Assembly: GCA_947587615.1 (NCBI GenBank) | Contig: CANPYC010000003.1 | Coordinates: 1-64,000, forward strand | Direction: 5' to 3' | Source: Candidatus Gastranaerophilales bacterium | GTDB taxonomy: Bacteria; Cyanobacteriota; Vampirovibrionia; Gastranaerophilales; Gastranaerophilaceae | Length of the DNA stretch: 64,000 nt | Shown here: in pieces, positions 1,626 to 45,829 of the stretch | How the letters are laid out: each line of letters starts with the position of its first letter | How positions within the stretch are numbered: position 1 is the stretch's first letter | The notes under the pieces: model-generated | What the model was told of the DNA's origin: nothing | Databases searched by the model: none | What the model saw: the letters and a program-made list of their open reading frames with translations, nothing else | Program-made: the position numbers and the translations under genes

Positions 1626-1654
1626 TTGCATTGCATTAAAAAAACAAGTATAAT
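1626..1654 (+). promoter_or_regulatory. Putative sigma70-type promoter TTGCAT-N17-TATAAT for the radical SAM operon
   Basis: -35 at 1626-1631, -10 at 1649-1654, 17-nt spacer, upstream of the first operon gene. Confidence 0.6.
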
Positions 1655-1682
1655 TTTAGTGTAACAAGTTAAGTAGCAGGAA

Positions 1683-2354
1683 GTGAATCAGAGGTTTTTT
1701 AATATATATCAATATATTGCTGTGCTTATTTTTTTCCCGCTTGCGTTTTATTTGTGGCATAGGGAATTAGCAGATATTACTTATGTAATCTTAATATTAA
1801 GTTTACCTGTTATAACAGCATATATAGTTCCTGCTGTCGGGACTAATATTACAAAATTATGGGAATTTAACAATAAAAAATTTATGATAGGTAAATTTAG
1901 GCTATACCATGGCTTTGTATTGGGTTCTGTTACAAGTATTTTTGGATATTTTATATATAAAGTTTCGCCCCTTTGGACTAATATGACAAATGCTTTTATA
2001 ATTTCTCTTTTGGGTGGAGCTTTCATTGCTTTTTGGAATGTAATTTATGATATTCATGCGGTTAAATGCGGTTTTATTGTTGTAAATAACAAAAGTGCTT
2101 ATGAAAAAAAATCAGCCCATGAAATTGTTTTTGAATATGCACCTGTATATTTTTATTGTTTTGGTTTTATCTATTGTTTTTATATAAAACTTATTGAATA
2201 TTTCATTGATAAACCAATGAACAATTATTTTTGGACGGTTATTGTATTTGCGCATTTAGCTTCAATTTTTATACCGACATTAATTTATGCAATTTTTTCA
2301 AAAAAAATAAACGGATATTGGGGAATTGGCAGATACAAGGAGAATGATAAATGA
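1683..2354 (+). CDS. Polytopic integral membrane protein, function unknown
   Basis: Multiple hydrophobic helices; 3' end overlaps the next ORF. Confidence 0.7.
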   Translation: MNQRFFNIYQYIAVLIFFPLAFYLWHRELADITYVILILSLPVITAYIVPAVGTNITKLWEFNNKKFMIGKFRLYHGFVLGSVTSIFGYFIYKVSPLWTNMTNAFIISLLGGAFIAFWNVIYDIHAVKCGFIVVNNKSAYEKKSAHEIVFEYAPVYFYCFGFIYCFYIKLIEYFIDKPMNNYFWTVIVFAHLASIFIPTLIYAIFSKKINGYWGIGRYKENDK

Positions 2355-3658
2355 AAATAGCTTTTATTCGCCCGAGTATGTTTGGTTCTGCTTCAAAAGA
2401 TGCAATGTATCCGTTGGTTTTTGGTATTGTAAAATCATTAACTCCCGATGATTTTGATATTGTTTTTTATGATGAGCGAATTGAAAAAATTCCCGATATA
2501 ATTGACGCTGATGTTGTAGCATTAAGTGTTGAAACATTTAGCGCTAAAAGAGCTTATAAATTGTCTAAAAAATATATGGTGCAAGGTAAAAAGGTAATAA
2601 TGGGCGGTTTTCACCCGAGCGCTTGCCCTGATGAAGCGATTACTTATTGTAATAGCGTTATAATTGGAGAAATTGAAAATATTTGGGCAAGTGTTTTAGA
2701 AGATTTAAAAAACGGAAATTTAAAACAAATATATAAAGCTGAAAAATTAGCGGATTTATCAAAAATTAAATACGATTATTCGGTTTTTAAAGGCAAAAAA
2801 TATAATAAAATCGCTCTTGTACAATTTTCAAGAGGGTGCAGGTTTGCTTGCGAATTTTGCAGCGTCCATGCATTTTTTAAAAATTCAATTCGAACAAAAC
2901 CTATTGATGATATTCTTAATGAATTAAAAGAAATAAAAGAAAATGTAATATTTTTTATTGATGATAATTTATTTTCTAACGAGCAAGAAGCGCAAAAGCT
3001 TTTTGAGAGTTTAATTCCTCTAAAAAAGAAATGGGCATGCCAGATAAGTATTGATGCAGCAAAAAATCAAGACTTGCTTAAACTTATGAAAAAGGCAGGG
3101 TGCGCTCTTGTTTTAATCGGGTTTGAATCTTTAAATATTGATAATTTAAAGCAGATGGGTAAAGGCGCAAATATTAAATATAACGATTATAAGACGGTTA
3201 TTAAAAATATTTATAGCGCAGGGATAATGATTTATGGAACATTTGTTATAGGTTATGATAATGACACAAAAGACACGGCAAAAAATTTAATGAACTTTGC
3301 GCTTGAAAATAAATTTGCAATTGCAAATTTTAATCCCTTAATGCCAATGCCCGGGACTAGGTTATATGAAAGATTAAAAGAAGAAAACAGGCTAATTTAT
3401 GATAAATGGTGGCTTGATGATAACTACAGATACGGCGATGCTATGTTGAAACCTAAAAACATGAGCGAAGAAGAATTAATGCAAAGCTGTAAATGTGCCA
3501 GATACGAATTTAATTCTTATAGAAATATTTTTAGAAGATTATTAAATTTTAAATCAAATTGCGCAAATTTTACTAATCTTATTTTATTTTTGTGCGCCAA
3601 TTTAATATCAAAATCGGAAATACATACAAAACAAGGGAAAAAATTAGGCGGTGAGTAG
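2351..3658 (+). CDS. B12-binding-domain-type radical SAM protein (paralog 1)
   Basis: SRGCRFACEFC (CX3CX2C) after an N-terminal Rossmann-like region ending KKVIMGGFHPSACPDEA; LIGFESLN and PMPGTRLYERL motifs. Confidence 0.9.
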   Translation: MKIAFIRPSMFGSASKDAMYPLVFGIVKSLTPDDFDIVFYDERIEKIPDIIDADVVALSVETFSAKRAYKLSKKYMVQGKKVIMGGFHPSACPDEAITYCNSVIIGEIENIWASVLEDLKNGNLKQIYKAEKLADLSKIKYDYSVFKGKKYNKIALVQFSRGCRFACEFCSVHAFFKNSIRTKPIDDILNELKEIKENVIFFIDDNLFSNEQEAQKLFESLIPLKKKWACQISIDAAKNQDLLKLMKKAGCALVLIGFESLNIDNLKQMGKGANIKYNDYKTVIKNIYSAGIMIYGTFVIGYDNDTKDTAKNLMNFALENKFAIANFNPLMPMPGTRLYERLKEENRLIYDKWWLDDNYRYGDAMLKPKNMSEEELMQSCKCARYEFNSYRNIFRRLLNFKSNCANFTNLILFLCANLISKSEIHTKQGKKLGGE

Positions 3659-5030
3659 CGATTTAAAAATAGCATTAATAAAACCGACAATCGGAACAAA
3701 ACTTCATTCTTTATATATTGATGAAGGGAGAATGGAGCCTTTATCACTCGGCGTTTTGGCGGGGCTTCTTGATGATTATGCACAAATTTCTCTTTATGAT
3801 GACAGGATGGAAAAAATCCAATATGATAAACCTTTTGATATAGCAATGATTACCGTTGAAACTTATACGGCAAAAAGAGCCTATGAAATATCGGAAGAAT
3901 TTAAAAAGAGAAATGTTACGGTTATAATGGGCGGAATGCACGCAAGATTAATCCCTGAAGAAGTGCTTGAACATTGCGATTGCGTAATGCTTGGTGACGG
4001 GGAAAATATTATTGAAAAAGTTATAGAAGATTTTAAAAATAATAATCTTCAAAGAATATATGATGGTAAAGTTGCGCTTGAGCCTCAAAAAGGTTTTTTT
4101 CCAAGGCGAGATTTATACAAAGGAAAAGGTTATCTTCCAATTTCTTTATTACAGTTTTCAAGAGGCTGTGTGTATAATTGCAACTATTGCGCCGTGAGCA
4201 GATATTTTGACAGACGCCATTTCACAAGAAGCGTTGATGAGGTTATAAAAGAAATAGAATTTCAAAACAGAAAGTTTTTATTTTTTGTTGATGATAATTT
4301 TGTCGCTAATAAAGAAAAAGCAAAAGAACTTTTAAGAGCTTTAATCCCATTAAAGGTTTATTGGGTCAGCCAAGGCAGTATTGATATGCTCTATGATGAT
4401 GAATTAATGGAGCTCATTGTTAAATCGGGCGGTATGGGTTTTGTTATGGGCTTTGAATCGATTAATGAAGCAAGCCTTGATTATATGGGAAAAAAGGTTA
4501 ATAAATTAAAAGGATTTGATAAATTCAAATGGGAAATAGAAAGATTAAGATATTGGGGACTTCAAACCTGGGCTGCTTTTACAATCGGGCATGATAGCGA
4601 TACAATTGAAAGTATAAAAGCAACTTGCGATTTTTCAATTCAGAATAAATTTACTTTTGCGGCGTTTAATATTTTAATGCCTTATCCCAACACTCCTTTA
4701 TATAATCAGCTCAAAGAAGAAAACAGGCTCTTATACGGCGGTAAATGGTGGCTTGATGATACATACCGATTTAATAATGCTGCTTTTATTCCAAAAAATA
4801 TGACACCTGATGAATTAACGGATGTCGGGTTTTATTGCAGGAATGAATTTAATAAACCGTCTTCATTACTGTATCGTATGTTTGAACCTCACACAAACTT
4901 AGCTTCATTCCATAGATTTATCACATATTGGATTTATAACCCCCTATTCAGAAAAGAAGTTTATAAAAAACAAGGTATGCTCTTTGGTTTAAAGAGATAT
5001 TTAGAAAGGAATAACAGTGCTGAAAGGTAG
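3651..5030 (+). CDS. B12-binding-domain-type radical SAM protein (paralog 2)
   Basis: SRGCVYNCNYC; VIMGGMHARLIPEE; GFESINEASLDYMGKK; GTG start. Confidence 0.9.
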   Translation: MSSDLKIALIKPTIGTKLHSLYIDEGRMEPLSLGVLAGLLDDYAQISLYDDRMEKIQYDKPFDIAMITVETYTAKRAYEISEEFKKRNVTVIMGGMHARLIPEEVLEHCDCVMLGDGENIIEKVIEDFKNNNLQRIYDGKVALEPQKGFFPRRDLYKGKGYLPISLLQFSRGCVYNCNYCAVSRYFDRRHFTRSVDEVIKEIEFQNRKFLFFVDDNFVANKEKAKELLRALIPLKVYWVSQGSIDMLYDDELMELIVKSGGMGFVMGFESINEASLDYMGKKVNKLKGFDKFKWEIERLRYWGLQTWAAFTIGHDSDTIESIKATCDFSIQNKFTFAAFNILMPYPNTPLYNQLKEENRLLYGGKWWLDDTYRFNNAAFIPKNMTPDELTDVGFYCRNEFNKPSSLLYRMFEPHTNLASFHRFITYWIYNPLFRKEVYKKQGMLFGLKRYLERNNSAER

Positions 5031-5718
5031 AGTATACCGGTTAGATGAAATAACTCAAAGTGATATTAATTCAATGTATGAATTAATGGCAATGTATTAT
5101 GATAATTTAAAAAAAGAAAATTTTATCTCGGATTTAGAAAAAAAGAGCCGATTAATTATCCTAAAAGATAATGATAATCAAATAAAAGGCTTTACAACAA
5201 TTGTTTTATATGACGCAACAATAGAAAACATAAAAATAAAATTGCTTTTTTCGGGTGATACCATTATTCATAAGGACTATTGGTCAAATAATGATTTAGC
5301 GCAGGTTTGGATAAAAAATGCGCTTGAGCTTAAAAAAGGGTTTGATGAAAAACTATACTGGCTTTTAATATCAAAAGGCTATAAAACCTATAAATATTTA
5401 TCTGCTTTTTATAAAGAATTTTATCCTAAGTATGACAAACAAACACCGAATTTTGAACAAAAAATCATTGATTTTTTTGGCGAGAAATTCTATTCAAAAT
5501 ACTATGATAAAAAAACAGGTATTATTAAGATGAATAAAACAAAAGATTATCTGAAAGAAGAATATTCAAAAATCCCTAAAGAAAAATTAACGGATAAAAA
5601 TATAGAATTTTTTGTACACAAAAACCCTCTTTATTATAAGGGAAATGAACTTGTCTGTGTAGCTGAACTTGATGAAAACAATTTGAATAAGGCGGGAAAA
5701 CGTGTACTTGGAATATAA
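5017..5718 (+). CDS. GNAT-like/unknown protein in the radical SAM operon
   Basis: Intact 233-aa ORF overlapping both neighbours; weak GNAT-like N-terminus (RLIILKDNDNQIKGFTTIVLYD). Confidence 0.55.
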   Translation: MLKGRVYRLDEITQSDINSMYELMAMYYDNLKKENFISDLEKKSRLIILKDNDNQIKGFTTIVLYDATIENIKIKLLFSGDTIIHKDYWSNNDLAQVWIKNALELKKGFDEKLYWLLISKGYKTYKYLSAFYKEFYPKYDKQTPNFEQKIIDFFGEKFYSKYYDKKTGIIKMNKTKDYLKEEYSKIPKEKLTDKNIEFFVHKNPLYYKGNELVCVAELDENNLNKAGKRVLGI

Positions 5719-7147
5719 AAAATTATTTGAAAATACAAGAAAAGACTTTTTATCCGCAATAAATAGCATTGATAAAATTCAATTTGATATTTTAAAAAAA
5801 ATATTGAATGATAATTCAAATACAAAATATGGTGAAAAATATAAATTTGAAAAAATTCAAAATATTTCGCAATATCAAAACGAAGTCCCAACAACTGTTT
5901 ATGAAGATTACCGCCCCTATATAAACGAAATAATGCGAGGTGAAAAAAATATCTTAACTTATGAAGATGTAATTTTGCTTGAACCCACAAGCGGCTCAAG
6001 CGGAAGCGCAAAACTTATTCCCTATACAAAAAGCCTTAAAAAAGCATTCAATAACGGAATCAAACCCTGGTTGAGTGATTTATTTTTAAATTATCCTGAT
6101 ATTATTAATCTTCCTATGTATTGGTCAATATCTCCTAATGTTAAACAGGATATTATAAAATCAAAAGTTAAAATCGGGTTTGAAAATGACCTTGATTATC
6201 TTGAAGATGATTTTGCTCAAATTATTAAAAAAAATATTGTAGTACCGCCAATTTTAAATAATAAAGAGGATTTTATTAAAACAAGCGCAGATTTTCTTTC
6301 AAAAATTAATAATCTTGGGCTTATTTCAATTTGGAGTCCGACATTATTAATGCTTTTTGTTGAAAAATTAAAAGATAAACCAAAAAATATATGGAAAGAA
6401 TTAAAGCTCATTAGCGCTTGGGATGATAGTAATTCTCAAATGTATTTTGAAAAATTAAAAACATTATTTCCCGATGTAAAATTTCAAGGTAAAGGACTAT
6501 TATCAACAGAAGCAATAATTACAATACCCATTTTAAATATCGGTAAATTGCCTTGTATAAATTCTCATTTTTTTGAATTTTTTGATATTGAAACAAGCAA
6601 AATAAAGCTGCTCAATGAACTTGAAAAAGGAAAAAATTATAGAGTAATCGTAACCACTCAAGGCGGTCTATACAGATATAATACAAATGACATTATTAAC
6701 GTATATGATTTTTATAATAATTGCCCGCTTTTAAAATTTATCTCAAGAGGAGATAATATTTCTGATTATTTTGGAGAAAAACTCAATGAAGCATTTGTTT
6801 TAGACATAATAAAATCACTTAAACTTGACAGTATAGCGGATTTTTGTATGTTTGCGCCATATACAAATAGGGAAAACTTTTATTATGTTTTATATCTTGA
6901 AACAGATAAAACAATTAATTTAAAAGAAATTGAAGAAAAATTTGAAGAAAAGTTATTAATGAATTTTCATTATAAATACGCAAGAAAACTTAATCAATTA
7001 AAACATTTTAGAATTATTAAAGTAAAAAATGCAATTTTGCGCTATAGTGAAATATGTCAAAACAGAGGTCAAAAGGCAGGAGACATCAAGCCAAGGATTT
7101 TTTCAAATTGTATTAGCTGGAATTTTGAAGAGGATTTTGAAAGATGA
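5702..7147 (+). CDS. GH3-family acyl-adenylate-forming / acyl-amido synthetase-like protein
   Basis: NTKYGEKYKFEKI...YQNEVPTTVYEDYRPYI...LLEPTSGSSGSAKLIPYT (GH3 ATP-binding motif) and RVIVTTQGGLYRYNTND. Confidence 0.85.
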   Translation: MYLEYKKLFENTRKDFLSAINSIDKIQFDILKKILNDNSNTKYGEKYKFEKIQNISQYQNEVPTTVYEDYRPYINEIMRGEKNILTYEDVILLEPTSGSSGSAKLIPYTKSLKKAFNNGIKPWLSDLFLNYPDIINLPMYWSISPNVKQDIIKSKVKIGFENDLDYLEDDFAQIIKKNIVVPPILNNKEDFIKTSADFLSKINNLGLISIWSPTLLMLFVEKLKDKPKNIWKELKLISAWDDSNSQMYFEKLKTLFPDVKFQGKGLLSTEAIITIPILNIGKLPCINSHFFEFFDIETSKIKLLNELEKGKNYRVIVTTQGGLYRYNTNDIINVYDFYNNCPLLKFISRGDNISDYFGEKLNEAFVLDIIKSLKLDSIADFCMFAPYTNRENFYYVLYLETDKTINLKEIEEKFEEKLLMNFHYKYARKLNQLKHFRIIKVKNAILRYSEICQNRGQKAGDIKPRIFSNCISWNFEEDFER

Positions 7148-8475
7148 AAATAGTTTTTATATCACCGGCAGGTGCAATGCACAGGTATAACGGGAGCTTT
7201 AAAAAAGCGCTGCATTATGCCCCTATGACAGTTCCTACTCTTGCTTCACTAATTCCACAAGAGCTTAATGCGGAAGTTAAATTTTATGATGAAACGGTTG
7301 AAAAAATCCCTTTGGATATTGAAGCCGATATAATTTCAATTACCGCTATAACGGGAACCGCTTCAAGAGCCTATGCTTGGGCTGATTACTACAGGAAAAG
7401 AGGAATAAAAGTATTTTTAGGCGGAGTTCATCCTTCTTTAAGACCCGACGAAGCAAGAGCTCATTGCGACGTTTTATTCAGAGGTTTAGGGGATTATACG
7501 TTTCCTCAAGCGCTTTTAGATTATAAAAACGGGTGTTTAAAAAGCGAATATTGTGACTATGAAAGCAAATCCATTGCAAACAGACCACTTCCAAGACGTG
7601 ATTTATTAAAGAAAAATTCTTATGTTACATATAATACAATGGAGGTAATAAGAGGCTGTCCTCATCATTGTTCTTTTTGTGCTTATCCTGCGGCATTTGG
7701 AAGAAATATATTATATCGCCCGATAGATGATGTTATTGATGAAATGAAAACTCTAAAGGGCAGAGAAGTATTATTCCCCGATGTAAACCTTATAAGTGAT
7801 ATAAATTATGCTAAAAACCTTTTTAGAGCAATGATACCATTAAAGAAAATGTGGTTTGGTCTAACGACATCCGCTGTTGTACTTGATAAAGAATTAATGA
7901 ACCTGCTTCAAAAAAGCGGCTGTAGGGGCTTATTAATCGGGTTTGAATCGATTAATCAAAAGGCGCAAGCTTTTGTAAATAAGGGTGTTAATAAAACGTC
8001 AAACTATGAATTATTAATGAAACAGCTTCATGATATAGGGGTAACCGTCAACGGATGTTTTGCTTTTGGCGGAGATGAAGATGATAAAGACGTTTTTGAA
8101 AAGACGGTGGAAGCTGTTCAAAAATTAAAAATAGATTTACCGAGATATTCAATTATAACACCGTTTCCAGGTACACCTTTTTATAATGATTTAATTGCGC
8201 AAAATAGAATCATAGAAACGGAAAACGCTATGTATGATGTTGAACATGTCTGTTTTCAGCCTAAAAATATGAGTGTTGAAGAACTCTACCAAGGTATTGA
8301 TTGGGCTTGGAAAGAAACTTATAAACCGTCTAATATAGTGCATAGGCTTGGTTTTAAGCCTGATAAAATGTTTTTTATAAAATATGCAACAAATTTTGCA
8401 TATATGCACTGGGCAGACAAATTTAGGGCGTATACAAAAGAAAGACTATGTGATAACAGCGATATTCCGCTATAA
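7144..8475 (+). CDS. B12-binding-domain-type radical SAM protein (paralog 3)
   Basis: IRGCPHHCSFC; KVFLGGVHPSLRPDEA; LIGFESINQ. Confidence 0.9.
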   Translation: MKIVFISPAGAMHRYNGSFKKALHYAPMTVPTLASLIPQELNAEVKFYDETVEKIPLDIEADIISITAITGTASRAYAWADYYRKRGIKVFLGGVHPSLRPDEARAHCDVLFRGLGDYTFPQALLDYKNGCLKSEYCDYESKSIANRPLPRRDLLKKNSYVTYNTMEVIRGCPHHCSFCAYPAAFGRNILYRPIDDVIDEMKTLKGREVLFPDVNLISDINYAKNLFRAMIPLKKMWFGLTTSAVVLDKELMNLLQKSGCRGLLIGFESINQKAQAFVNKGVNKTSNYELLMKQLHDIGVTVNGCFAFGGDEDDKDVFEKTVEAVQKLKIDLPRYSIITPFPGTPFYNDLIAQNRIIETENAMYDVEHVCFQPKNMSVEELYQGIDWAWKETYKPSNIVHRLGFKPDKMFFIKYATNFAYMHWADKFRAYTKERLCDNSDIPL

Positions 8476-8487
8476 AGAAGGTAATTT

Positions 8488-9825
8488 ATGAAAATTCTTT
8501 TTATAACTCCTGCAATTGGCAAAAAAGATAATGAAAAATATATAGGCACCTGGAAAATGGAGCCTTTAACAGTTGCTACCTTAAAATCATTGACTCCTAA
8601 AAATATTGAAACTTTCTTTTTTGATGACAGGATTGAAAATATTAACTATAATATTGACGTTGATTTAGTTTCAATAAGTGTTGAGACTTATACAGCTCAC
8701 AGAGCCTATATTATAGCCGATACCTTCAGAAAATCAGGTAAAAAAGTAATACTCGGAGGCTATCACGTTCAGGCAATTCCCGATGAAGCATTGGAACATG
8801 CTGATTCTATTGTAATCGGTAACGCTGAATGTATCTGGGAAAAGGTTTTAGAAGATTTTCAAAATAATAATTTTAAAAAAATATACTATGGCGAAAACAA
8901 GTTTTCATCCATGACCCCCGATAGAAGCATATTCAAAGGAAAAAAATATCTTCCTTTATCGTTAATTGAAACAGGGAGAGGCTGCCCTAACAGGTGCGAA
9001 TTTTGTTCAATTACAACGTTTTATAATCATAAATACACAATAAGACCGATTGAAAAAATCATTGAAGAAATTAAACAATTAAAACCAAAGATGATATTTT
9101 TTGTTGATGATAATATTTGTGCTAATAAAGAACATTTAAAAGAATTATGCAGAGCTCTGATACCGCTTAAAATATCCTGGACATCTCAAACGGCACTTAA
9201 TGTTGCGCAGGATGATGAATTGTTAGATTTAATGGCAAAAAGCGGATGTAAAAATATCTTAATCGGCTTTGAATCGATGGATGAGAGAAATCTTGATCAG
9301 ATGAATAAAAGCTGGAATTATAAATTAGGCGAGACTGATAAATTAATTGAAAAGATACATAAAAAAGGTATAAGTATTTATGCTACGTTTTTATTCGGGT
9401 TTGATTTTGATAACCTCGCAAATTTTAGAAGAACAATAGATTTTGCGCTAAAACACAAATTCTTTTATGCAGCATTTAATCATCTTTTACCTTTCCCGGG
9501 TACTCCTTTATATCAGAGATTAAAAGATGAAAACAGGCTCTTATATGATAAATGGTGGCTCAAGGATGATTATAAATACGGAGATATTCCCTATAAACCC
9601 GCTGCTTTATCATATATGGAGTTAAGAAACTTTTGTGCGGACGCAAGAAGAGAATTTTTCAGTATCAAAAACATTATAAAAAGAGGAATAGCTCAATTCT
9701 TTAGAAACAAAGATTTATATTTATTGATGATATTTTTTACCCAAAATTTCAATTTAAGAAGAGAGATAGATGAAAAATTAAATCTGCCTGTCGGAAAGGG
9801 TCTTGATAATGTCATTTCAAAATAA
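8488..9825 (+). CDS. B12-binding-domain-type radical SAM protein (paralog 4)
   Basis: GRGCPNRCEFC; KVILGGYHVQAIPDEA; LIGFESMDERNLDQM; PFPGTPLYQRLKDENRLLYDKWW. Confidence 0.9.
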   Translation: MKILFITPAIGKKDNEKYIGTWKMEPLTVATLKSLTPKNIETFFFDDRIENINYNIDVDLVSISVETYTAHRAYIIADTFRKSGKKVILGGYHVQAIPDEALEHADSIVIGNAECIWEKVLEDFQNNNFKKIYYGENKFSSMTPDRSIFKGKKYLPLSLIETGRGCPNRCEFCSITTFYNHKYTIRPIEKIIEEIKQLKPKMIFFVDDNICANKEHLKELCRALIPLKISWTSQTALNVAQDDELLDLMAKSGCKNILIGFESMDERNLDQMNKSWNYKLGETDKLIEKIHKKGISIYATFLFGFDFDNLANFRRTIDFALKHKFFYAAFNHLLPFPGTPLYQRLKDENRLLYDKWWLKDDYKYGDIPYKPAALSYMELRNFCADARREFFSIKNIIKRGIAQFFRNKDLYLLMIFFTQNFNLRREIDEKLNLPVGKGLDNVISK

Positions 9826-10837
9826 AAAATATAAATATGAATTGGCAAAAGTCTCTGATGGTGAAGAAATATCAAATTTACTTGAAAAAACTGCTTTTAA
9901 AGGTGATATCAGCCTGATATATTCAAGGCGTCCCAATGCGGTTTTATCAATAAACAAAGATTGTGCGGCAAGTGCCGTTGTGATTGGTAAAGAAGTTGAT
10001 ACCGGCAGAATAAAAGGTGTAGGGGTTTGCCAGATATATAGAATGCTGGTAAATGACAAGTATGAAAATATTGCATACTTAGGCGGTTTTAGAATTGATA
10101 ATGACTCTTGCCTCAATATTGTTGAAGCGTATAAAATTCTTGAAAATTTTATCAAAGAAAACAACGTGAAATATACTTTTACTACAATTTTAGAAGATAA
10201 TATTTACGCTCAAAAAATGCTCACCAAAAAAAGAAAAATAATGCCATATTACCTTAAAACAGCCGATTTTACGGTTAATATTTTTGCAAAAAATCTAAAA
10301 TATAATACAAAATATACTGTTGAAAAAATTAAAGAACAAGAAAAACAAAAATTAATTGATTTTATTAATTTTTATTCTAAAGATAAGACTTTTTTCCCTG
10401 AAATTAATGATTTAGATAATTTTTATGCATTAAAAGATAATGAAGATAATATTTTAGCTTGCGGAAATTTATGGGAGCAGACGGATTATAAACAGTTGAT
10501 AATAAAAAAATATTCACTTAAATATAAAATTTTAAAAACAGTTTTTAATCCTGTTTTAAATTTTTTTTCATATCCAAAATTTCCAAATGAAAATGAAATT
10601 ATAAAATATGAAACACTTTCTTATGTTTTATATAGAGATGAAGAAATATTAGCGGATTTTATAAAACAGATGTCAAATAAAATAAAATATGATTTTTTTG
10701 TATATGGTAACACAAAGGAATTAAAAGAAATAAAACCTCCAATAAAGTATAGAAGTTTTGTTTACCTTGTTGATTGGGATAAAAATATTAATATAAAAGA
10801 TTTTAATAATATATATATGGAATGTGCGCTGTTATGA
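9809..10837 (+). CDS. GNAT-family N-acyltransferase-like protein
   Basis: KGDISLIYSRRPNAVLS...GRIKGVGVCQIYRMLV...IAYLGGFRI resembles a GNAT fold; ATG at 9809 preferred over TTG at 9803. Confidence 0.65.
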   Translation: MSFQNKKYKYELAKVSDGEEISNLLEKTAFKGDISLIYSRRPNAVLSINKDCAASAVVIGKEVDTGRIKGVGVCQIYRMLVNDKYENIAYLGGFRIDNDSCLNIVEAYKILENFIKENNVKYTFTTILEDNIYAQKMLTKKRKIMPYYLKTADFTVNIFAKNLKYNTKYTVEKIKEQEKQKLIDFINFYSKDKTFFPEINDLDNFYALKDNEDNILACGNLWEQTDYKQLIIKKYSLKYKILKTVFNPVLNFFSYPKFPNENEIIKYETLSYVLYRDEEILADFIKQMSNKIKYDFFVYGNTKELKEIKPPIKYRSFVYLVDWDKNINIKDFNNIYMECALL

Positions 10838-11688
10838 TTATTGATATTCATTCACACATGATTAATCAAAATTTTGATATAAATACGTTTAAGCATAATT
10901 TCACAACAAAAATGTTTTTCTTGAGGCTTCAAACAAAAAATTTTGAACAGTATTATATAAAAATGTCTTCTCAGCTAAAAAACAGCAAAGTTGATAAAGC
11001 GGTTATTTGCGCTCTGGAAGGTGCTTCGACCTGTTCAAATAACGAACAGAGCGCAAAAATATGTAAAGAAAACAAAAATTTTCTTTTTGGTGCTAACCTT
11101 AACCCTAATGATAATGATATTGAAAACAAATTTAAAAAAGTTATTGAAGATAATGCCGTTTTAATAAAAATTCTGCCGTCATTTCAAAATATTGATTTAG
11201 CGGATAAGTGCTGTTATAAATTTTATGAACTCTTAAAAGAGTATGATATTCCCCTGTTGGTTCATACGGGGATTGAACACACAATCAAAGGAGGAAATCA
11301 AGAATATAATAACCCTTTAAGAGTAGAAAATGCGCTTAAAGCGGGAGTAAGAGTAATTTGCGCACATTTGGGCGCAAAGTTAAACTTTTGGGAGAGGGAT
11401 TATTTTGAAAACTGGTGTAATTTAGCTTATAAATATGAAAATTTATACGGCGATTTAAGCGCTATGATATGGTTTTATAGAAAAGATTATTTAAAAAAAC
11501 TTTTGAAAGATAAGGTTCTTTGCCAAAAATTAGTCTTTGGAAGCGATTATCCCTGTTATCCTTATATAAATTTAAAAAAAGACGCAAATATTTTTGATGA
11601 TTGGTATAATATGTTTAAAGATTTAGGGTTTGATGAAAGTATATTTTTAAGAGCGCAAAACCTTTTAAGGCTAAACAAAACCGCATAG
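10834..11688 (+). CDS. Amidohydrolase (amidohydrolase_2-like metal-dependent hydrolase)
   Basis: MIIDIHSHM N-terminus, PLLVHTGIEH, VICAHLGA, LVFGSDYPC; ATGA overlap with the upstream stop. Confidence 0.85.
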   Translation: MIIDIHSHMINQNFDINTFKHNFTTKMFFLRLQTKNFEQYYIKMSSQLKNSKVDKAVICALEGASTCSNNEQSAKICKENKNFLFGANLNPNDNDIENKFKKVIEDNAVLIKILPSFQNIDLADKCCYKFYELLKEYDIPLLVHTGIEHTIKGGNQEYNNPLRVENALKAGVRVICAHLGAKLNFWERDYFENWCNLAYKYENLYGDLSAMIWFYRKDYLKKLLKDKVLCQKLVFGSDYPCYPYINLKKDANIFDDWYNMFKDLGFDESIFLRAQNLLRLNKTA

Positions 11689-12810
11689 TTTATATTTGCA
11701 CAATAAAGGAATAGTTTTATTAACGGTAAATCTTAAAAAATTAAGCATAATTTGTCTATTTAGGGGAAGATGTTTATAATAAATCATTAAATATTCAAAA
11801 TAAGCTTTAGCGCCTCGCTGTATTTTAAAATCTCCTACACCTGCGCTCATATTATGTATTTCATAATTTTTTTCATACATTTCATCTATAAATGCTGAAA
11901 TTATTCTATATAGCCCTAATTCTTTAGGCAAGGTTAAATCATAACCAACGGCAGGAGCTGCAAGAGTATTATTTTTTGCAAAAGTTAAACACATTGAAGC
12001 AATTGTATCTTTGTTTTTAAATACTTCTAAATTAAATATGGGGTTGAAACTAACGAGTTTAAAGTATTCTTTAGTATAGCAAGGATTGTATTTTGAATAT
12101 TTTTCAATATAAAGCATTGTATAAATATCTTTTATTCTTTCAAAATCATCGTCATTTTGAACTTTATGTGCTTTAAAGGATGAATTTTTATAAAATTTTA
12201 AGTCTTTTTTTGTTTTGTACTTATACTTTGAAATTTCTTTTAATTTTTTATCTTTTATAAAAATTTGCCTTGAAACTATTTCTTTATATCCTTGTTTATT
12301 TAGATTTTCATATAAGTTAGTATTATATTCTTTTGTAATATTTTTAAAAACAATACAGTAGTCTTTAAATTCATTTTTTAGAAAATTTGTTATCTTGTAT
12401 ATTTGTTCATTATCTAATTCAGGATAAAGATTAGTTGATATAAACCATTGATTTACATAAACCGTTTTATTTATTTTGTTTTTTATAAAATAATTTTCTA
12501 AAAATTTAAAAAGAAAACCAAGCTTTAAATTGTTTTTATTAAATTCTTCTTTTATATATTTTACATAGTGCGAAAGCATTGATATATAAAGAGTATCGTT
12601 ATAATTGTTATTGCTAATTGCAAGCGGAATAAGGATATTATTAATTTTTAAAATTTTAACTTCGCAGTCGATGTTTTTAATGAAATATTTTGTTCCTTTG
12701 GTCATTAAAGCTTTGAAATAATCAAGAAGAGCTTCTTGTTCTTTTGTGAGGTCTTTTGTTAATTCGGTTAAATTTTTTATGTCGTATATTTCTAACATTC
12801 GCCCTGCCAT
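11671..12810 (-). CDS. GNAT/FemAB (BioF2-like) acyltransferase-like protein
   Basis: C-terminal IHNMSAGVGDFKIQRGAKAYFEYLMIYYKHLP resembles the BioF2-like acetyltransferase signature. Confidence 0.6.
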   Translation of the reverse strand: MAGRMLEIYDIKNLTELTKDLTKEQEALLDYFKALMTKGTKYFIKNIDCEVKILKINNILIPLAISNNNYNDTLYISMLSHYVKYIKEEFNKNNLKLGFLFKFLENYFIKNKINKTVYVNQWFISTNLYPELDNEQIYKITNFLKNEFKDYCIVFKNITKEYNTNLYENLNKQGYKEIVSRQIFIKDKKLKEISKYKYKTKKDLKFYKNSSFKAHKVQNDDDFERIKDIYTMLYIEKYSKYNPCYTKEYFKLVSFNPIFNLEVFKNKDTIASMCLTFAKNNTLAAPAVGYDLTLPKELGLYRIISAFIDEMYEKNYEIHNMSAGVGDFKIQRGAKAYFEYLMIYYKHLPLNRQIMLNFLRFTVNKTIPLLCKYKLCGFV

Positions 12811-27501: not shown

Positions 27502-28707
27502 GTGTCTAATAACAAAAAAAACATATTCCAAGATATAGATTTCAATGCTTTGACCTCGCAACTTACCGAAGCGGTTAAGTCTGCCGTAGAAAAATATTGG
27601 GAGCAGGATATTCAAATTGTTTTTCAGGCGATTAACAACTTTAGAGAGGTACGAGAAGAAAGGCTTTGCGCAAATATTGATTTCTTTTCAAGTCAAATTA
27701 AAGTTGAAGTACATAAACCCGTCACAATCAGACTCAGCAAAGATTTTGTCGAAAATTTCTTAACAATAACTCTCGATAGCCGCATATCCAATTTTAGCTT
27801 AACAAAGCTGACGGGGCTTGAAATAAAAATATTAAACAATTTTTGTGAATTTCTCTATAAAAGGATAAAAGAAGTTTTAATTTCCCCTCGTGATGTTAAA
27901 ATTAGCGAAAGAAGCGAAAAAAATATCAATTTTCTGTTTTATTTATCGCTTGATAATACCTGCTGTTCGCAATTAATGCTGACAATTCCTCAAGACAGAA
28001 TTAACATGCCCCAAATTAAACCAACCCAAAACTTTAAAGACGAAGACTTTTTAACTTCGTCAACGCAGGTAAGAATAAAAGCGGGAAGCTCAAAAATTAC
28101 CCTGAACGACTTAAAAAATCTTTCAAGCGATGATATCGTGCTTTTAGAGTCAAGCGATATTACAAAATTAACTTTAATATCGGGAAATTTAGAAAAAAGA
28201 TTTAATGTTAAAGTAAATCCTGCTTTAGTTTTAAAGCTTGATAATGAAGATAATCAGGACAACGGTGAAACTTATAATGAGGTAGCAATGGAAAAAAACC
28301 TTTGGGATGATATACAAATTGAAGTAAATGCTGAATTTGAAAAAGTAAAAATGACAATAGGAGAGCTGAAACAGATAACTCAAGGTCAGGTTGTTGACTT
28401 AGGCTCTGTTTTTAATAATGAAATTTCACTTTATGTTGAAGAAAAAAAGGTCGCAAAAGGCGAGCTGATAATAATTAATGACAGGTATGCCGTAAGGTTG
28501 AATGAGGTTTTAAGCTCCAATAAACCGCAAATTCAACCTAAAGTCCAAACTCCGCCAAAGGCTCAAGTGCCCCCGCCTGCTCAAGCAAGACCGGCGCAAT
28601 CAAGACCTCCTCAACCTAAACAGGCGCCGCCTGCCCAAAAACCTCAGCCAAAACCTCAAAAGGCAAATGAGGATGAAGAATTTGACTATTCGGATTTTGA
28701 AAAATAG
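27502..28707 (+). CDS. FliM/FliN (SctQ-like) motor-switch family protein with two SpoA-like domains
   Basis: Two SpoA-like segments (TQVRIKAGSSKITLNDLKNL... and IQIEVNAEFEKVKMTIGELKQITQGQVVDLGSVFNNEISLYVEEKKVAKGELIIINDRYAVRLNEVL); adjacent to fliOPQR; GTG start. Confidence 0.75.
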   Translation: MSNNKKNIFQDIDFNALTSQLTEAVKSAVEKYWEQDIQIVFQAINNFREVREERLCANIDFFSSQIKVEVHKPVTIRLSKDFVENFLTITLDSRISNFSLTKLTGLEIKILNNFCEFLYKRIKEVLISPRDVKISERSEKNINFLFYLSLDNTCCSQLMLTIPQDRINMPQIKPTQNFKDEDFLTSSTQVRIKAGSSKITLNDLKNLSSDDIVLLESSDITKLTLISGNLEKRFNVKVNPALVLKLDNEDNQDNGETYNEVAMEKNLWDDIQIEVNAEFEKVKMTIGELKQITQGQVVDLGSVFNNEISLYVEEKKVAKGELIIINDRYAVRLNEVLSSNKPQIQPKVQTPPKAQVPPPAQARPAQSRPPQPKQAPPAQKPQPKPQKANEDEEFDYSDFEK

Positions 28708-28718
28708 AGGAAAATAAA

Positions 28719-29237
28719 ATGATAACATACATTAGCGCATTTATATTTTATACCTTTGCAATGGTTGGAATTATCCTTGTCGGCTTTATTATTTACAAAA
28801 AAGTAATGTCAACAACAAAAAGCGAAAACAAAGGATTAATTAAAATTATAGATTGTACTACGATTGGCCCGAAAAAAAATCTTCTTGTCGTAAAAATTAA
28901 AAATGAAAAATTTTTAATTGCTTCCGGAGCTGAACACACAACGTTTTTATCAAAATTAAATTACGAAGAACAAAATAATATTCAGATACCAAGACAGCGA
29001 GAGCGGCAAAATAATCAACAACAAGAAGAAACGGATTATGAACAGCAAGAAAGACTTGCCGCTCAACGTGCGCAGCTTGAGCAAATTAAAATGGCAAAAT
29101 TAAATAAAATTAGAAATCAATTTAAACAACTGTATAATCAGGATGAAATTCAACAAACACCGCAAAGAAAAGCGATAGTAAGGAAACTTTTAAAAGATTT
29201 GGATAATACTACAAGCTCACAAGGGGGCAGGTTTTAA
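28719..29237 (+). CDS. FliO-like flagellar biosynthesis protein
   Basis: N-terminal TM, IDCTTIGPKKNLLVVKIKNEKFLIASG (FliO-like), directly upstream of fliP. Confidence 0.65.
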   Translation: MITYISAFIFYTFAMVGIILVGFIIYKKVMSTTKSENKGLIKIIDCTTIGPKKNLLVVKIKNEKFLIASGAEHTTFLSKLNYEEQNNIQIPRQRERQNNQQQEETDYEQQERLAAQRAQLEQIKMAKLNKIRNQFKQLYNQDEIQQTPQRKAIVRKLLKDLDNTTSSQGGRF

Positions 29238-29878
29238 TGGACAATTTATTAAAAGATATTAACCCTGTAATTCAATTGCTGGTTGCAATGGCGGCATTCT
29301 CCCTTTTGCCTTTTGTCTTTGTTTCAATGACACCTTTTCTAAGATTTGCAATTGTATTTTCAATGTTGAAAACAGCGCTTGGGACAAATTCAGTACCTCC
29401 CGTTATTACTTTAATAGGCTTGTCGTTAATTTTAACGGTTTATACAATGGCTCCGGTTTTTGATAAGATGTATCAGGAGTATCAAATTCCTTATCAAAAA
29501 ACTCATAATGTTGTAGTTGCGCTGGATGCAAGTTCAAAACCTTTAAAAGAATATATGTTAAAGCAGACAAGGCAGAGTGATTTAGCGTTTTTTGTCGAAA
29601 AAACAAGAAAAATTCCCCCTCAAACACCTGATGAATTAACTTTGTGGGAAGTAGCACCCGCCTATATAATTTCTGAATTAAAAACATCTTTTGAAATCGG
29701 CTTTATAATTTATGTTCCTTTTATTGTTCTTGATTTGGTTGTTGCAAATGTACTTTTGGCGCTCGGGATGTTTATGCTGTCTCCTCAAATTGTTTCAACA
29801 CCTTTCAAATTGTTGATTTTTATTGCGGTTGACGGTTGGAGTTTAATTGTAAAAGGTCTTGTGGAGAGTTTTAGTTAA
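29237..29878 (+). CDS. fliP: Flagellar export apparatus protein FliP
   Basis: PFLRFAIVFSMLKTALGTNSVPPVITLIGLSLILTVYTMAPV; gene order P-Q-R. Confidence 0.9.
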   Translation: MDNLLKDINPVIQLLVAMAAFSLLPFVFVSMTPFLRFAIVFSMLKTALGTNSVPPVITLIGLSLILTVYTMAPVFDKMYQEYQIPYQKTHNVVVALDASSKPLKEYMLKQTRQSDLAFFVEKTRKIPPQTPDELTLWEVAPAYIISELKTSFEIGFIIYVPFIVLDLVVANVLLALGMFMLSPQIVSTPFKLLIFIAVDGWSLIVKGLVESFS

Positions 29879-30369
29879 TGGAAACTTTAGTAGAATATCT
29901 TGCAAAAGGTTTTATGGTAATGCTTTCGATTAGTATGCCCTGCGTACTTATGGCGGCACTTGTGGGTCTTGTTGTCGGAATTTTGCAAGCCGTTACTCAG
30001 GTTCAAGAGCAAACAATTGCCGCTGCTCCTAAGATTGTTATAGTTTTTTTAACAATAGTAATTCTGGGAGGCTACTTTATAAAAGTTCTGACAAACTATA
30101 TCCTTGAAGGGGTGCATATTGCTTTTGAGATTGTTCCAAAGAATGATACTTTTGTTCTTCCTTCAGATTATTACAGATATACCCGCCCTTTTGACGCTGA
30201 AATGCAAGACAGATTGAGATATGACAGGTCGTTAAACAAAGCTCTTTTAAATCAGGGTAAAATTCCATGGGATAAAAAAGCTACAAAGCATTCTGTTTAT
30301 GTTAAATCAAAGCAATCTGCGGCTCAAGAAGCAAACTTTATAGAAAAAAGAAAGATTAATCAAAGGTAA
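29878..30369 (+). CDS. fliQ: Flagellar export apparatus protein FliQ, with long C-terminal extension
   Basis: Two-helix core VGLVVGILQAVTQVQEQTIAAAPKIVIVFLTI; 163 aa total. Confidence 0.9.
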   Translation: METLVEYLAKGFMVMLSISMPCVLMAALVGLVVGILQAVTQVQEQTIAAAPKIVIVFLTIVILGGYFIKVLTNYILEGVHIAFEIVPKNDTFVLPSDYYRYTRPFDAEMQDRLRYDRSLNKALLNQGKIPWDKKATKHSVYVKSKQSAAQEANFIEKRKINQR

Positions 30370-30374
30370 AAATA

Positions 30375-31154
30375 TTGGATGAAATTTTAAAACAATTTGC
30401 AACACTCTTTCCTGAGCTGAATAACGCTCTTGGCGCAGGTATTATGATTTTTTTGCGTCTGGTGGGCTTGATGAGGCTTGCCCCTGTTTTATCAAAGAGT
30501 GAAATTCCTTCCATAGTTAAAATTTCAATAGCTTTAATTTGTACCGTTATTTTAATGGGAGTGATAAAACCTCAAGCGCCGCCTGCTAATACACCCATAT
30601 ATCTTTGTATGTTTTTAAATTTCTTTTTTGGAATGATTATTGGTTTTGTTGCGAACTGTATTCTTGCAACCATCTTAGCTGGTGGTGATATGATAAATAA
30701 TCAAATGGGTTTATCTTCTGCTATGATTATGGATCCCAGTACAAGAAGCCAAGTAAGCGTTATGGCAAATTATTTTTCAACTTTGGCTCTTTTAATCTTT
30801 ATTTATTCGGGCGGAATATATTGGCTTTTTAATGCACTTATAAAAAGTTTTACGCTGTTACCTATGTATAGTGTTGATTTTCATTTTGAAAAATTTGTAA
30901 ATATTCAATATTTAAGCGATGTAACCGCTAATATTCTCTTTACGGGTCTGCATATTGCAAGTCCTGTTTTGCTTGCTACAATGGGGCAGGATATAATTCT
31001 TGGTATAATTTCCAAAACAGCGCCTCAAGTTAATGTTTTTTCTCTCAGCTTTTTATTCAAACCCGTTATGGGAGCTTTTATTTTAATTGTAATTCTTCCT
31101 GGTTTGATTAATGTAATCACTGACTATCTGGTTTCTTTTGCGAGCATTTTTTAA
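30375..31154 (+). CDS. fliR: Flagellar export apparatus protein FliR
   Basis: GGDMINNQMGLSSAMIMDPSTRSQVSVMANYFSTLALLIF; TTG start. Confidence 0.88.
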   Translation: MDEILKQFATLFPELNNALGAGIMIFLRLVGLMRLAPVLSKSEIPSIVKISIALICTVILMGVIKPQAPPANTPIYLCMFLNFFFGMIIGFVANCILATILAGGDMINNQMGLSSAMIMDPSTRSQVSVMANYFSTLALLIFIYSGGIYWLFNALIKSFTLLPMYSVDFHFEKFVNIQYLSDVTANILFTGLHIASPVLLATMGQDIILGIISKTAPQVNVFSLSFLFKPVMGAFILIVILPGLINVITDYLVSFASIF

Positions 31155-42987: not shown

Positions 42988-44601
42988 ATGGCAGATAATA
43001 AAAAAGAGCAAGAAAGAGATGAACTTCACAGAACTATTTGGGGGATAGCAAACGACCTCAGAGGTTCGGTAGATGGCTGGGATTTCAAACAATATGTTTT
43101 GGGAATGTTGTTTTACAGATACATTTCAGAAAACCTGGCTAACTTCATCAATGCAAGTGAAATTGAAGCCGGCGCAGGGGATTTTGATTATGCTAAGTTA
43201 TCAGATGCGGAAGCTGAATCAGCAAGAGAAGAACTTGTTAATGCTAAAGGCTTCTTTATATTGCCAAGCGAATTGTTTTGCAATATTAAACAGAAAGCGT
43301 CTGGGGATGAAAACTTGAATGAAACTCTTGAAAAGATATTTAGAAACATTGAAAATTCTGCCATGGGTACTGACTCTGAAAGAGACTTTAAAGGTCTGTT
43401 TGATGATATGAATGTTAATAGTAACAAGCTGGGTGGAGGGGTTAAAGAACGCAACGAAAGACTTGTCAAACTGATTAACGGTGTTGCAAATATGAATTTG
43501 GGCAACTATCAAGACAATACCATTGACGCTTTTGGAGATGCTTATGAGTTCCTTATGGGCATGTATGCTTCTAATGCAGGAAAATCCGGTGGAGAATTTT
43601 TCACTCCGCAGGAGGTATCAGAACTGCTTACAAGAATAACTTTAGTAGGTAAAACAGAAGTTAATAAAGTTTATGACCCTGCTTGCGGTTCAGGTTCTCT
43701 GTTGTTAAAGTTCGCTAAGATACTTGGTAAAGATAATGTAAGAAATGGCTTCTTTGGGCAAGAAGTTAATATAACAACTTATAACCTATGCAGAATAAAT
43801 ATGTTTCTGCATGATATAGGCTACGAAAAGTTTGATATAGCGCATGGCGATACTTTAAAATCACCGCAACACTGGGATGATGAACCGTTTGAAGCAATAG
43901 TTTCAAATCCTCCATATTCAATTCAATGGGAAGGAGACAGTAATCCTTTACTGATAAATGATGAGAGGTTCACTCCGGCAGGGGTTCTTGCTCCAAAAAG
44001 TAAGGCAGATTTAGCTTTTGTTATGCACTCGCTCTCATGGCTTGCTCCAAACGGTGCTGCTGCCATAGTATGTTTTCCGGGAATAATGTACAGAGGTGGA
44101 GCTGAACAGAAAATCCGCAAATATTTAATCACTAACAACTTTGTAGACTGTGTGATTCAACTGCCGGACAACTTATTCTTTGGCACATCTATTGCTACTT
44201 GTATTATGGTATTGAAAAAGAATAAGACGGATAACTCAACACTATTCATAGATGCAAGTAAAGAATGCGTTAAAGTAACTAATAATAACAAGTTAACCGC
44301 CGATAATATTGCATCAATAGTTAAGTATTATACAGATAGAAAAGATGTTGAGTATGTTTCAAAACTTGTACCTAATTCAAAGGTAGAAGAAGAAGACTTC
44401 AATCTCTCGGTATCAACTTATGTAGAGCAGCAAGACACAAGAGAAGTTATTGACATCACTGAACTTAATAAAGAAATTTCACAAATTGTTGAAAAAGAAG
44501 CTCAGCTAAGAGCGCAAATAGACAAAATAATAGCTGAATTAAGAGAAGAAGCAACTACCGAGAAAATCTCGGCAGTTCAAAAAGAGGGTGCAGATGAGTA
44601 G
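42988..44601 (+). CDS. hsdM: Type I restriction-modification DNA methyltransferase subunit M
   Basis: VYDPACGSGSLLLKFA, EAIVSNPPYS (N6-MTase motifs), GGEFFTPQEVSELL. Confidence 0.97.
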   Translation: MADNKKEQERDELHRTIWGIANDLRGSVDGWDFKQYVLGMLFYRYISENLANFINASEIEAGAGDFDYAKLSDAEAESAREELVNAKGFFILPSELFCNIKQKASGDENLNETLEKIFRNIENSAMGTDSERDFKGLFDDMNVNSNKLGGGVKERNERLVKLINGVANMNLGNYQDNTIDAFGDAYEFLMGMYASNAGKSGGEFFTPQEVSELLTRITLVGKTEVNKVYDPACGSGSLLLKFAKILGKDNVRNGFFGQEVNITTYNLCRINMFLHDIGYEKFDIAHGDTLKSPQHWDDEPFEAIVSNPPYSIQWEGDSNPLLINDERFTPAGVLAPKSKADLAFVMHSLSWLAPNGAAAIVCFPGIMYRGGAEQKIRKYLITNNFVDCVIQLPDNLFFGTSIATCIMVLKKNKTDNSTLFIDASKECVKVTNNNKLTADNIASIVKYYTDRKDVEYVSKLVPNSKVEEEDFNLSVSTYVEQQDTREVIDITELNKEISQIVEKEAQLRAQIDKIIAELREEATTEKISAVQKEGADE

Positions 44602-45775
44602 ACTTGATGACCTAATACAAGAACTTTGCCCTGACGGGGTTGAGTATAAGACTGTTGATGAAGTTTGTTCTATTTCTAAAGGGGTACAGTATAATAAAGA
44701 GAATATGAACGATATAGGTTCATACCCTGTTATGAATGGAGGAATGAATCCTTCAGGTTACATAGAAAAATACAATACAGATGAAAATACTATAATAATT
44801 TCACAGGGCGGTGCTTCAGCAGGTTATGTAAATTATCAAACCGTTAAGTTTTGGGCTGGAGCTCATTGTTATATTGTAAGACCAAAAAGTATCGTACATA
44901 ATAGATATTTGTACCATTTTCTAAAACAAAAGGAATACTTATTGCAAAAATGCCAGTATGGTGCAGGAATACCTGCATTGGCAAAATCAACCGTTACGAA
45001 ACTTGAAGTTCCTGTACCTCCTATGGAGGTACAGTGTGAAATTGTCAAGTACCTTGACAATTTCACAGAGCTTACAGCAGAGCTTACAGCAGAGCTTACA
45101 GCTCGTAAGAAACAGTATGAGTATTATAAGCAATATTGTTTCGATAGTATTCAAAATGCTCCTATAAAACACATTACTGATATTGCATTAGTAAAAGCGA
45201 GGGTTGGTTGGCAAAGACTAACTAAGGCTGAATATTTAACACATGGAGAATATTATCTAATAACTGGTACTGATTTTGATATGGCTGGTGGAATTAATTT
45301 TGAACATTGTGTATATGTAACAAAAGAACGATATGACATGGATGCAAATATACAAGTTCATAAAGATGATATTTTAATTACAAAGGACGGTACTTTAGGC
45401 AAAGTCGCACTACTAAAACAAGAACCAACAAAATTAACAACTCTAAATAGCGGTGTCTTTAGAATACATATTACTGACAAATTAGTTTTACCAAAATATC
45501 TATATCATTTCTTTACTTCAAAGTACTTTATCGACTTTGTAGAGAGCGTAAAAACAGGTTCGACAATTCCACATTTAACACAATCAGGTTTAGTATCATT
45601 AGATATTCCTATTCCTCCACTTGAAGAGCAAGAACGTATTGTTTCAATCTTAGACAGGTTTGATGCCTTGTGTAATGACATATCCATAGGTCTTCCGGCA
45701 GAAATTGAAGCACGCAAAAAACAATACGAGTATTACAGAGACAAATTACTAACATTCAAGGAAAAAGTTCTATAA
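44588..45775 (+). CDS. hsdS: Type I restriction-modification specificity subunit S
   Basis: Two TRDs separated by TELTAELTAELTARKKQYEYY; PIPPLEEQERIVSILDRFDALCNDIS. Confidence 0.97.
   Translation: MQMSRLDDLIQELCPDGVEYKTVDEVCSISKGVQYNKENMNDIGSYPVMNGGMNPSGYIEKYNTDENTIIISQGGASAGYVNYQTVKFWAGAHCYIVRPKSIVHNRYLYHFLKQKEYLLQKCQYGAGIPALAKSTVTKLEVPVPPMEVQCEIVKYLDNFTELTAELTAELTARKKQYEYYKQYCFDSIQNAPIKHITDIALVKARVGWQRLTKAEYLTHGEYYLITGTDFDMAGGINFEHCVYVTKERYDMDANIQVHKDDILITKDGTLGKVALLKQEPTKLTTLNSGVFRIHITDKLVLPKYLYHFFTSKYFIDFVESVKTGSTIPHLTQSGLVSLDIPIPPLEEQERIVSILDRFDALCNDISIGLPAEIEARKKQYEYYRDKLLTFKEKVL
45068..45103 (+). repeat. 12-bp tandem repeat x3 in hsdS spacer (GAGCTTACAGCA, ELTA/TAEL)
   Basis: 45068-45079, 45080-45091 identical; 45092-45103 one mismatch. 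Confidence 0.95.
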
Positions 45776-45829
45776 ACACAGTTGCAAATTGTATCTGTAT
45801 TTAATAAAGAAAAGCAAAGGAAGATAATA

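Follow-up and report, generated by a model that had tools for sequence, protein, structure and literature searches.

What pathway is served by a compact run of nine genes, four of them for radical S-adenosylmethionine (SAM) proteins, in a gut bacterium? The question arises from a window of 64,000 nt (the whole stretch of DNA that was analysed) on contig C3 of the 2.13 Mb genome of a Candidatus Gastranaerophilales bacterium, a non-photosynthetic gut relative of cyanobacteria. In this window nine consecutive + strand open reading frames (ORFs) span positions 1683-11688 in the order mem-rS1-rS2-gnB-GH3-rS3-rS4-gnA-amd, in which rS1 to rS4 are radical SAM proteins of the B12 (cobalamin) type, GH3 is an acyl-acid amido synthetase homologue and gnB is a small conserved protein. 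The explanation that we favour, and which we think somewhat probable, is that this locus is a horizontally mobile biosynthetic operon and the oxygen-independent form of a pathway that aerobic cyanobacteria encode, in oxygen-dependent form, in the orphan Rieske/CylC gene cluster.

The link to the aerobic side came through gnB. A search of 387 genomes from the phylum with an 11-sequence gnB profile gave 30 carriers, of which 27 lie outside the family of the window's host, with matches of 1e-34 to 1e-69 in aerobic cyanobacteria. At 25 of these 27 the neighbourhood was another one than in the radical SAM loci. In its full form this aerobic locus contains gnB, a Rieske protein, a ferritin-like protein, an AurF/CylC-like protein, a 2Fe-2S ferredoxin, another Rieske protein, a fatty-acid hydroxylase, a membrane hexapeptide-repeat protein (LbH) and GH3. 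The AurF-like member carries the peptides of published CylC primers (NQLYWVA, NQTSAA and DESFHF), and, judged by composition, the aerobic gnB loci match the Rieske-containing CylC cluster. That cluster is an orphan, product-less and with no substrate-activating gene seen by the authors who described it (Eusébio et al. 2021, PMC8406957); it has several Rieske proteins (two to four), a sterol-desaturase-family protein and one CylC homologue (PMC8406957). GH3 is absent from the main text of that paper, and the cluster often has this activating enzyme: GH3 lay inside the locus in 14 of the 25 other gnB genomes, as it did in 13 of 13 with radical SAM proteins. An unknown gut-bacterial operon is in this way linked to a widespread cyanobacterial gene cluster. 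Hidden Markov models of the Rieske, CylC, ferritin-like and fatty-acid hydroxylase proteins had no match anywhere in the window or in the loci of its relatives with radical SAM proteins.

The two sets of tailoring enzymes were never found together. Among 43 gnB-bearing genomes, 13 have radical SAM proteins only, 27 have oxygenases only, three have neither and none has both (13, 22, three and none among the first 38 hosts); the loci with neither are L075 and L080, both on short contigs, and L095. Of our results, this complete switch between partner sets is both the strongest and the most surprising. The haem-copper oxidase subunit COX1 was present in none of the 13 radical SAM hosts versus all 25 of the other hosts tested, and PsaA/PsaB in none of the 13 versus 20 of the 25. 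These COX1 counts cover the first 38 hosts; five later-found hosts outside them (G649, G663, G685, G712 and G713), which belong to the same class as Gastranaerophilales, all have the oxygenase version. The hosts of family f12 lack PsaA/PsaB, have COX1 and carry the oxygenase version, and therefore the split follows oxygen use and not photosynthesis. The presence of two Melainabacteria sequences in the same CylC group (PMC8406957) is consistent with such gnB hosts without PsaA/PsaB. In two COX1-positive loci (L076 and L080) we also saw FG-GAP/ASPIC repeat proteins of 955 and 562 aa beside gnA, GH3 and gnB, one of them together with a fatty acid desaturase.

The GH3 proteins join the two kinds of locus as well. 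Eighteen of them, from radical SAM loci and aerobic gnB loci, formed one clade (support 100/99) that stood apart from 14 other bacterial GH3s and was distinct from the sampled Bacteroidota-type GH3s. In 18 genomes of other phyla with distant GH3s no gnB was found, in a search that had no positive control and shows little. Because gnB and this GH3 clade are common to both versions while the redox set switches completely, we read the radical SAM locus as the oxygen-independent form of one pathway, a kind of substitution with a precedent in AcsF/BchE (PMC4500134). A narrower proposal is that the oxygenase cascade and the B12-type radical SAM proteins are alternative routes to one acyl-amide lipid or to homologous ones, built on one core and switched with the oxygen use of the host; this we put forward tentatively, as possible rather than probable. 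Alternatively, gnB and GH3 could be a module for making amides that has been reused in two unrelated pathways, in which the radical SAM proteins would not be stand-ins for oxygenases. Such an origin would fit tailoring enzymes that differ in fold and number, and the amd, mem and rS duplications that are without counterpart in the aerobic version, where gnA is scarce. We nevertheless consider it less likely, given that gnB and GH3 are related across lineages, that LbH is common to one type of the Gastranaerophilales locus (type B, below) and the aerobic version, that gnA occurs on both sides (aerobic-side loci L076 and L095) and that the complete switch tracks the terminal oxidase.

Several observations weigh against a single pathway in two versions. 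A shared acyl-amide core could be turned into different molecules by the two, there is no one-to-one correspondence between the number of radical SAM proteins and that of the oxygenases, and the distribution of gnA, amd, mem and LbH is uneven. The best match of the radical SAM proteins in the PDB was AprD4, which is named an oxidoreductase and not a methylase, and a search of the host genome for a cobalamin riboswitch found none; both bear on the use of B12. Moreover, 11 of the 13 radical SAM hosts belong to one family, so that three lineages underlie the correlation with oxygen, and the P values, including that of 7e-10 for the association, which ignores shared ancestry, overstate it. Finally, the gnB tree, which is weakly resolved, does not group the 13 radical SAM hosts (p 0.034 in a one-clade test), a result that its long branches weaken.

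What the pathway makes is suggested first by GH3. The initial annotation had recognised this protein and the amidohydrolase, and both identities were borne out by Pfam, GH3 through its N, middle and C domains (122, 67 and 37 bits against a cut-off of 23.6) and amd through Amidohydro_2. In a PDB search plant GH3 structures matched the window protein at E 5e-27, and it can be aligned with plant GH3.12 in its N and C parts. The adenylation motifs TSGSSGxxK, TE and GGLYRYxxxD were aligned in ten homologues, with one residue of TSGSSGxxK varying in L006, L007 and L045. There the first serine of nucleotide motif I is a glycine (TGGSxG in place of TSGSSG), a change that is possibly relevant to activity. 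GH3 enzymes form amides from carboxylates that they adenylate, and the GH3-type enzyme OlsH couples fatty acids with ornithine (PMC12493201).

From these and other resemblances we conclude that the product is probably a modified acyl amide of lipid type. The resemblances are weak ones, namely of GH3 to OlsH, of the aerobic hydroxylase to OlsE, of the Rieske protein to a methylsterol monooxygenase and of the radical SAM proteins to HpnJ; on the aerobic side too the scores of these nearest models were all far below cut-offs. One could then suppose a pathway to ornithine lipids or other amino-acid lipids, like that of OlsH/OlsI but with additional modifying enzymes, since OlsH is the nearest NCBIfam model of the window GH3, the aerobic version has its OlsE-like hydroxylase, and bacterial GH3s have been proposed as makers of varied N-acyl amino acids (PMC12493201). 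We find this improbable: the match to OlsH is of 44 bits against a cut-off of 620, Pfam gave no OlsI-like alpha/beta hydrolase match among the nine operon genes, and the GH3 clade stands apart from the sampled Bacteroidota-type enzymes. The known ornithine-lipid operon itself was rejected by the OlsH score and the lack of an OlsI match.

A second alternative to a lipid is a small aromatic or polar metabolite, in which GH3 would conjugate a non-fatty carboxylate, as plant GH3 enzymes do, and the radical SAM proteins would methylate it. The plant structures matched by GH3 are named for jasmonate, indole acetate and benzoates as substrates, AurF/CylC-type enzymes are part of the aerobic version, and B12 radical SAM enzymes in natural product pathways often methylate. 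We rate this as rather unlikely, because the fatty-acid hydroxylase, the desaturase, the resemblance to methylsterol monooxygenase and the membrane proteins around the core point towards a lipid.

How might such a lipid be modified in the absence of oxygenases? All four radical SAM paralogues have the Radical_SAM Pfam domain and, as the initial annotation had noted, the CX3CX2C motif (CRFACEFC, CVYNCNYC, CPHHCSFC and CPNRCEFC in rS1 to rS4). It had also ascribed an N-terminal region typical of cobalamin-binding proteins to all four; rS2 (35.3 bits) and rS3 (36.7) exceed the Pfam cut-off of 32.1 for B12-binding, and rS4 (29.1) and rS1 fall below it. The proteins possibly use cobalamin. In a tree the radical SAM proteins formed an rS3-like and an rS4-like clade, each with members from all three host lineages; rS1 and rS2 fell inside the rS4-like clade, and the rS3 of the window grouped with those of L072 and L079. 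The best-scoring NCBIfam models were BchE and HpnJ, and the scores of 71-109 bits, far below the equivalog cut-offs of 481 and 578, led us to reject the function of either. The family has repeatedly expanded in the Gastranaerophilales lineage, as seen in rS1, rS2, the duplicates of type B loci and paralogues off the locus, such as the extra rS3/rS4-type proteins on other contigs of type B genomes (G217:C38, L088; G366:C14, L089). Just upstream of the cluster in G260 (L045:13720-19200, reverse) there are five proteins of 325-377 aa with CX3CX2C and cysteine-rich N-termini, which look like a separate radical SAM-like array.

On our favoured reading, GH3 would adenylate an acyl carboxylate and join it to an amine, and gnB (perhaps also gnA and gnC, a convergent gene beside the operon) may transfer an acyl or other group. 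The pair rS3 and rS4, with the duplicates rS1 and rS2, would then use SAM radicals, possibly with cobalamin, to functionalise unactivated carbons along the acyl chain, a task for which aerobes use O2, and amd might remove a group from an intermediate by hydrolysis or decarboxylation. If both versions make the same or a homologous acyl amide, the gut version makes a previously unseen cyanobacterial-type lipid under anoxia. If their products are at least related, a multi-step O2-dependent pathway was replaced by an O2-independent one within the phylum where oxygenic photosynthesis arose. If all four radical SAM paralogues work on one scaffold, they would also be a source of new C-H chemistry.

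The distribution of the locus separates a core from its additions. A GH3 scan that covered 85,462 species genomes gave two rabbit-gut assemblies with the same gene order, at 75-95% identity, and one rumen assembly in which the locus is diverged. With the gnB profile, 387 genomes of the order gave nine further carriers, G348 and G391 being the rabbit-gut assemblies already mentioned, and three weak matches (G122, G270 and G389; E 2e-4 to 7e-4). Counting G148 from a search of the family, eleven family members carry the locus, in two arrangements. Type A (the window, L006, L007, L045 and L046) has the nine genes in the order given above, complete in three and cut by a contig end in two, and gnC follows wherever the contig reaches (the window, L045 and L046). 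Type B (L003 and L047-L051, six loci of which several are cut by contig ends) has radical SAM proteins of the rS3/rS4 clades, then gnA-gnB-GH3, LbH, amd and another radical SAM protein; L050 has gnC and L048 a fragment of it, and no gnA was found on the short contig L051. A smaller set of one rS3-type and one rS4-type radical SAM protein with gnA, gnB and GH3 occurs in G444 (L072, family f8, same class) and G405 (L079, family f16). The minimal radical SAM core is thus gnA-gnB-GH3 with one rS3-type and one rS4-type protein, to which mem, rS1, rS2 and amd are additions, and the stable core overall is GH3 and gnB, usually with gnA.

The sequence to the left of the locus is different in each type A genome, which sets its left border and suggests a cassette. 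Other sampled members of the window's genus had no gnB. Identity of the window pyrophosphatase to that of the genus with the other type A copies is mostly 76-80%, whereas rS2 and rS3 reach 91-95% identity in the two nearest type A copies, and this indicates that the window copy was horizontally transferred, as far as identities can tell. We rejected a plasmid-borne locus, there being no near match in a plasmid collection.

The smaller proteins of the operon are less easily placed. The initial annotation had two GNAT-like proteins. For gnB, a GNAT fold is predicted with moderate confidence from an AF2 model (pLDDT 73) whose top Foldseek matches were GNATs (E about 1e-5, TM about 0.4). For gnA, which possibly has two GNAT-like halves, the model had a pLDDT of 36. 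The three proteins gnA, gnB and mem had no accepted Pfam or NCBIfam match, mem being also without a PDB match. The gnA protein is conserved in both types A and B and in the lineages f8 and f16. The convergent gnC had no accepted Pfam or PDB match, a profile comparison among gnA, gnB and gnC detected no homology, and gnA and gnC had no profile match. A gnC gene at the equivalent place in L045 (67% identity), L046 (50%) and type B L050 (35%) indicates that it is probably associated with the cluster. After gnC, L045 (830-2551) and L046 have a protein of about 570 aa that is not found in the window, the L045 copy with WG repeats. A homologue of mem adjoins the core of lineage f16 (L079, 1.4e-48). 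The start of amd (MIIDIHSH) is backed by homologues beginning there, its DIHxH, H148, H182 and D242 are invariant in seven homologues, and among 192 family genomes amd occurred only in the two that also had GH3.

The layout described by the initial annotation, nine + strand ORFs with eight tight junctions, was confirmed by the coordinates (Table 1). There are 4-nt ATGA overlaps at 2351, 7144 and 10834, further overlaps of 8 nt (3651), 14 nt (5017), 17 nt (5702) and up to 23 nt (9803), and a sole gap of 12 nt before 8488. Its extent was given as the nine genes, which held, and left out the convergent gnC and the aerobic cyanobacterial counterpart. The proposed promoter TTGCAT-N17-TATAAT is present, although not above chance: promoter-like sites number 72 in the window against 70 expected from shuffles, a TGTATAATT-like -10 is common only to the close relatives L006 and L007, and the -35 is not shared. 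That the operon is beyond chance follows from the recurrence of its gene order in four other genomes. Scattering of the genes in relatives, which the initial annotation had named as evidence against it, was not seen in the neighbourhood search, and its view of an undescribed biosynthetic operon with a conserved neighbourhood and no match to a characterised pathway was upheld, while acyl transfer by the GNAT-like proteins and trimming by the amidohydrolase, which it had also proposed, are still putative. The radical SAM version was not found described in the papers searched on GH3-Rieske/radical SAM clusters or on radical SAM clusters of Gastranaerophilales/Melainabacteria.

Table 1. Features of the radical SAM-GH3 locus, in positions of the window.
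Feature	Position	Strand	Description	Basis
Possible promoter	1626..1654	+	TTGCAT-N17-TATAAT	Present, frequency at chance level
mem	1683..2354	+	Multi-pass membrane protein, 223 aa, no known family	60-77% identity in four type A relatives
rS1	2351..3658	+	B12-type radical SAM protein, rS4-like clade	Radical_SAM 2.4e-17, CX3CX2C, tree
rS2	3651..5030	+	B12-type radical SAM protein, rS4-like clade	Radical_SAM 6.6e-13, B12-binding 35.3 bits, tree
gnB	5017..5718	+	233 aa, GNAT fold (predicted), core marker common to aerobic cyanobacteria	AF2, Foldseek, HMM
GH3	5702..7147	+	GH3 acyl-acid amido synthetase homologue	Three GH3 Pfam domains, motifs, tree
rS3	7144..8475	+	B12-type radical SAM protein, rS3-like clade (core)	Radical_SAM 8e-18, B12-binding 36.7 bits, tree
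rS4	8488..9825	+	B12-type radical SAM protein, rS4-like clade (core)	Radical_SAM 1.3e-19, B12-binding 29.1 bits, tree
gnA	9803..10837	+	Conserved 344-aa protein, possibly two GNAT-like halves	Conservation
amd	10834..11688	+	Amidohydro_2 family metal-dependent hydrolase or decarboxylase	Pfam 1.3e-10, invariant ligands
gnC	11671..12810	-	Conserved convergent protein, no assigned family, probably associated	Same position in L045, L046, L050

Around the operon, a type I restriction HsdR-like ORF just to its left (1-1570) runs off the start of the window and contig, and a McrBC-like pair lies directly left of the cluster in L007. Translations also showed a second type I system of HsdM-, HsdS- and HsdR-like ORFs (42988-48943) and, downstream of the cluster, a flagellar-type export run with FliM/N-, FliO-, FliP-, FliQ- and FliR-like ORFs (27502-31154).

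Compared with known systems, the locus is like the OlsH/OlsI pathway of planctomycetes (PMC12493201) in having a GH3-type amide synthetase in a small operon, and unlike it in the low score of that enzyme, the lack of an OlsI match and the presence of radical SAM enzymes. With BchE and HpnJ it shares a radical SAM core with CX3CX2C and, above the Pfam cut-off in two of the four proteins, a B12-binding-like N-terminal domain, but the scores are far lower, the genomic context is another one and there are four paralogues. The AcsF/BchE pair of chlorophyll synthesis is similar in that O2-dependent and O2-independent enzymes serve one pathway according to oxygen, whereas in the gnB-GH3 loci a whole tailoring set switches and the pathway is uncharacterised. 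From the Rieske-containing CylC clusters (PMC8406957) the window differs by its four B12-type radical SAM proteins, amidohydrolase and gnC, and by having no Rieske, ferritin-like, CylC or fatty-acid hydroxylase protein; the two have in common gnB, a GH3 of the same clade, the LbH of type B and, in some loci, gnA.

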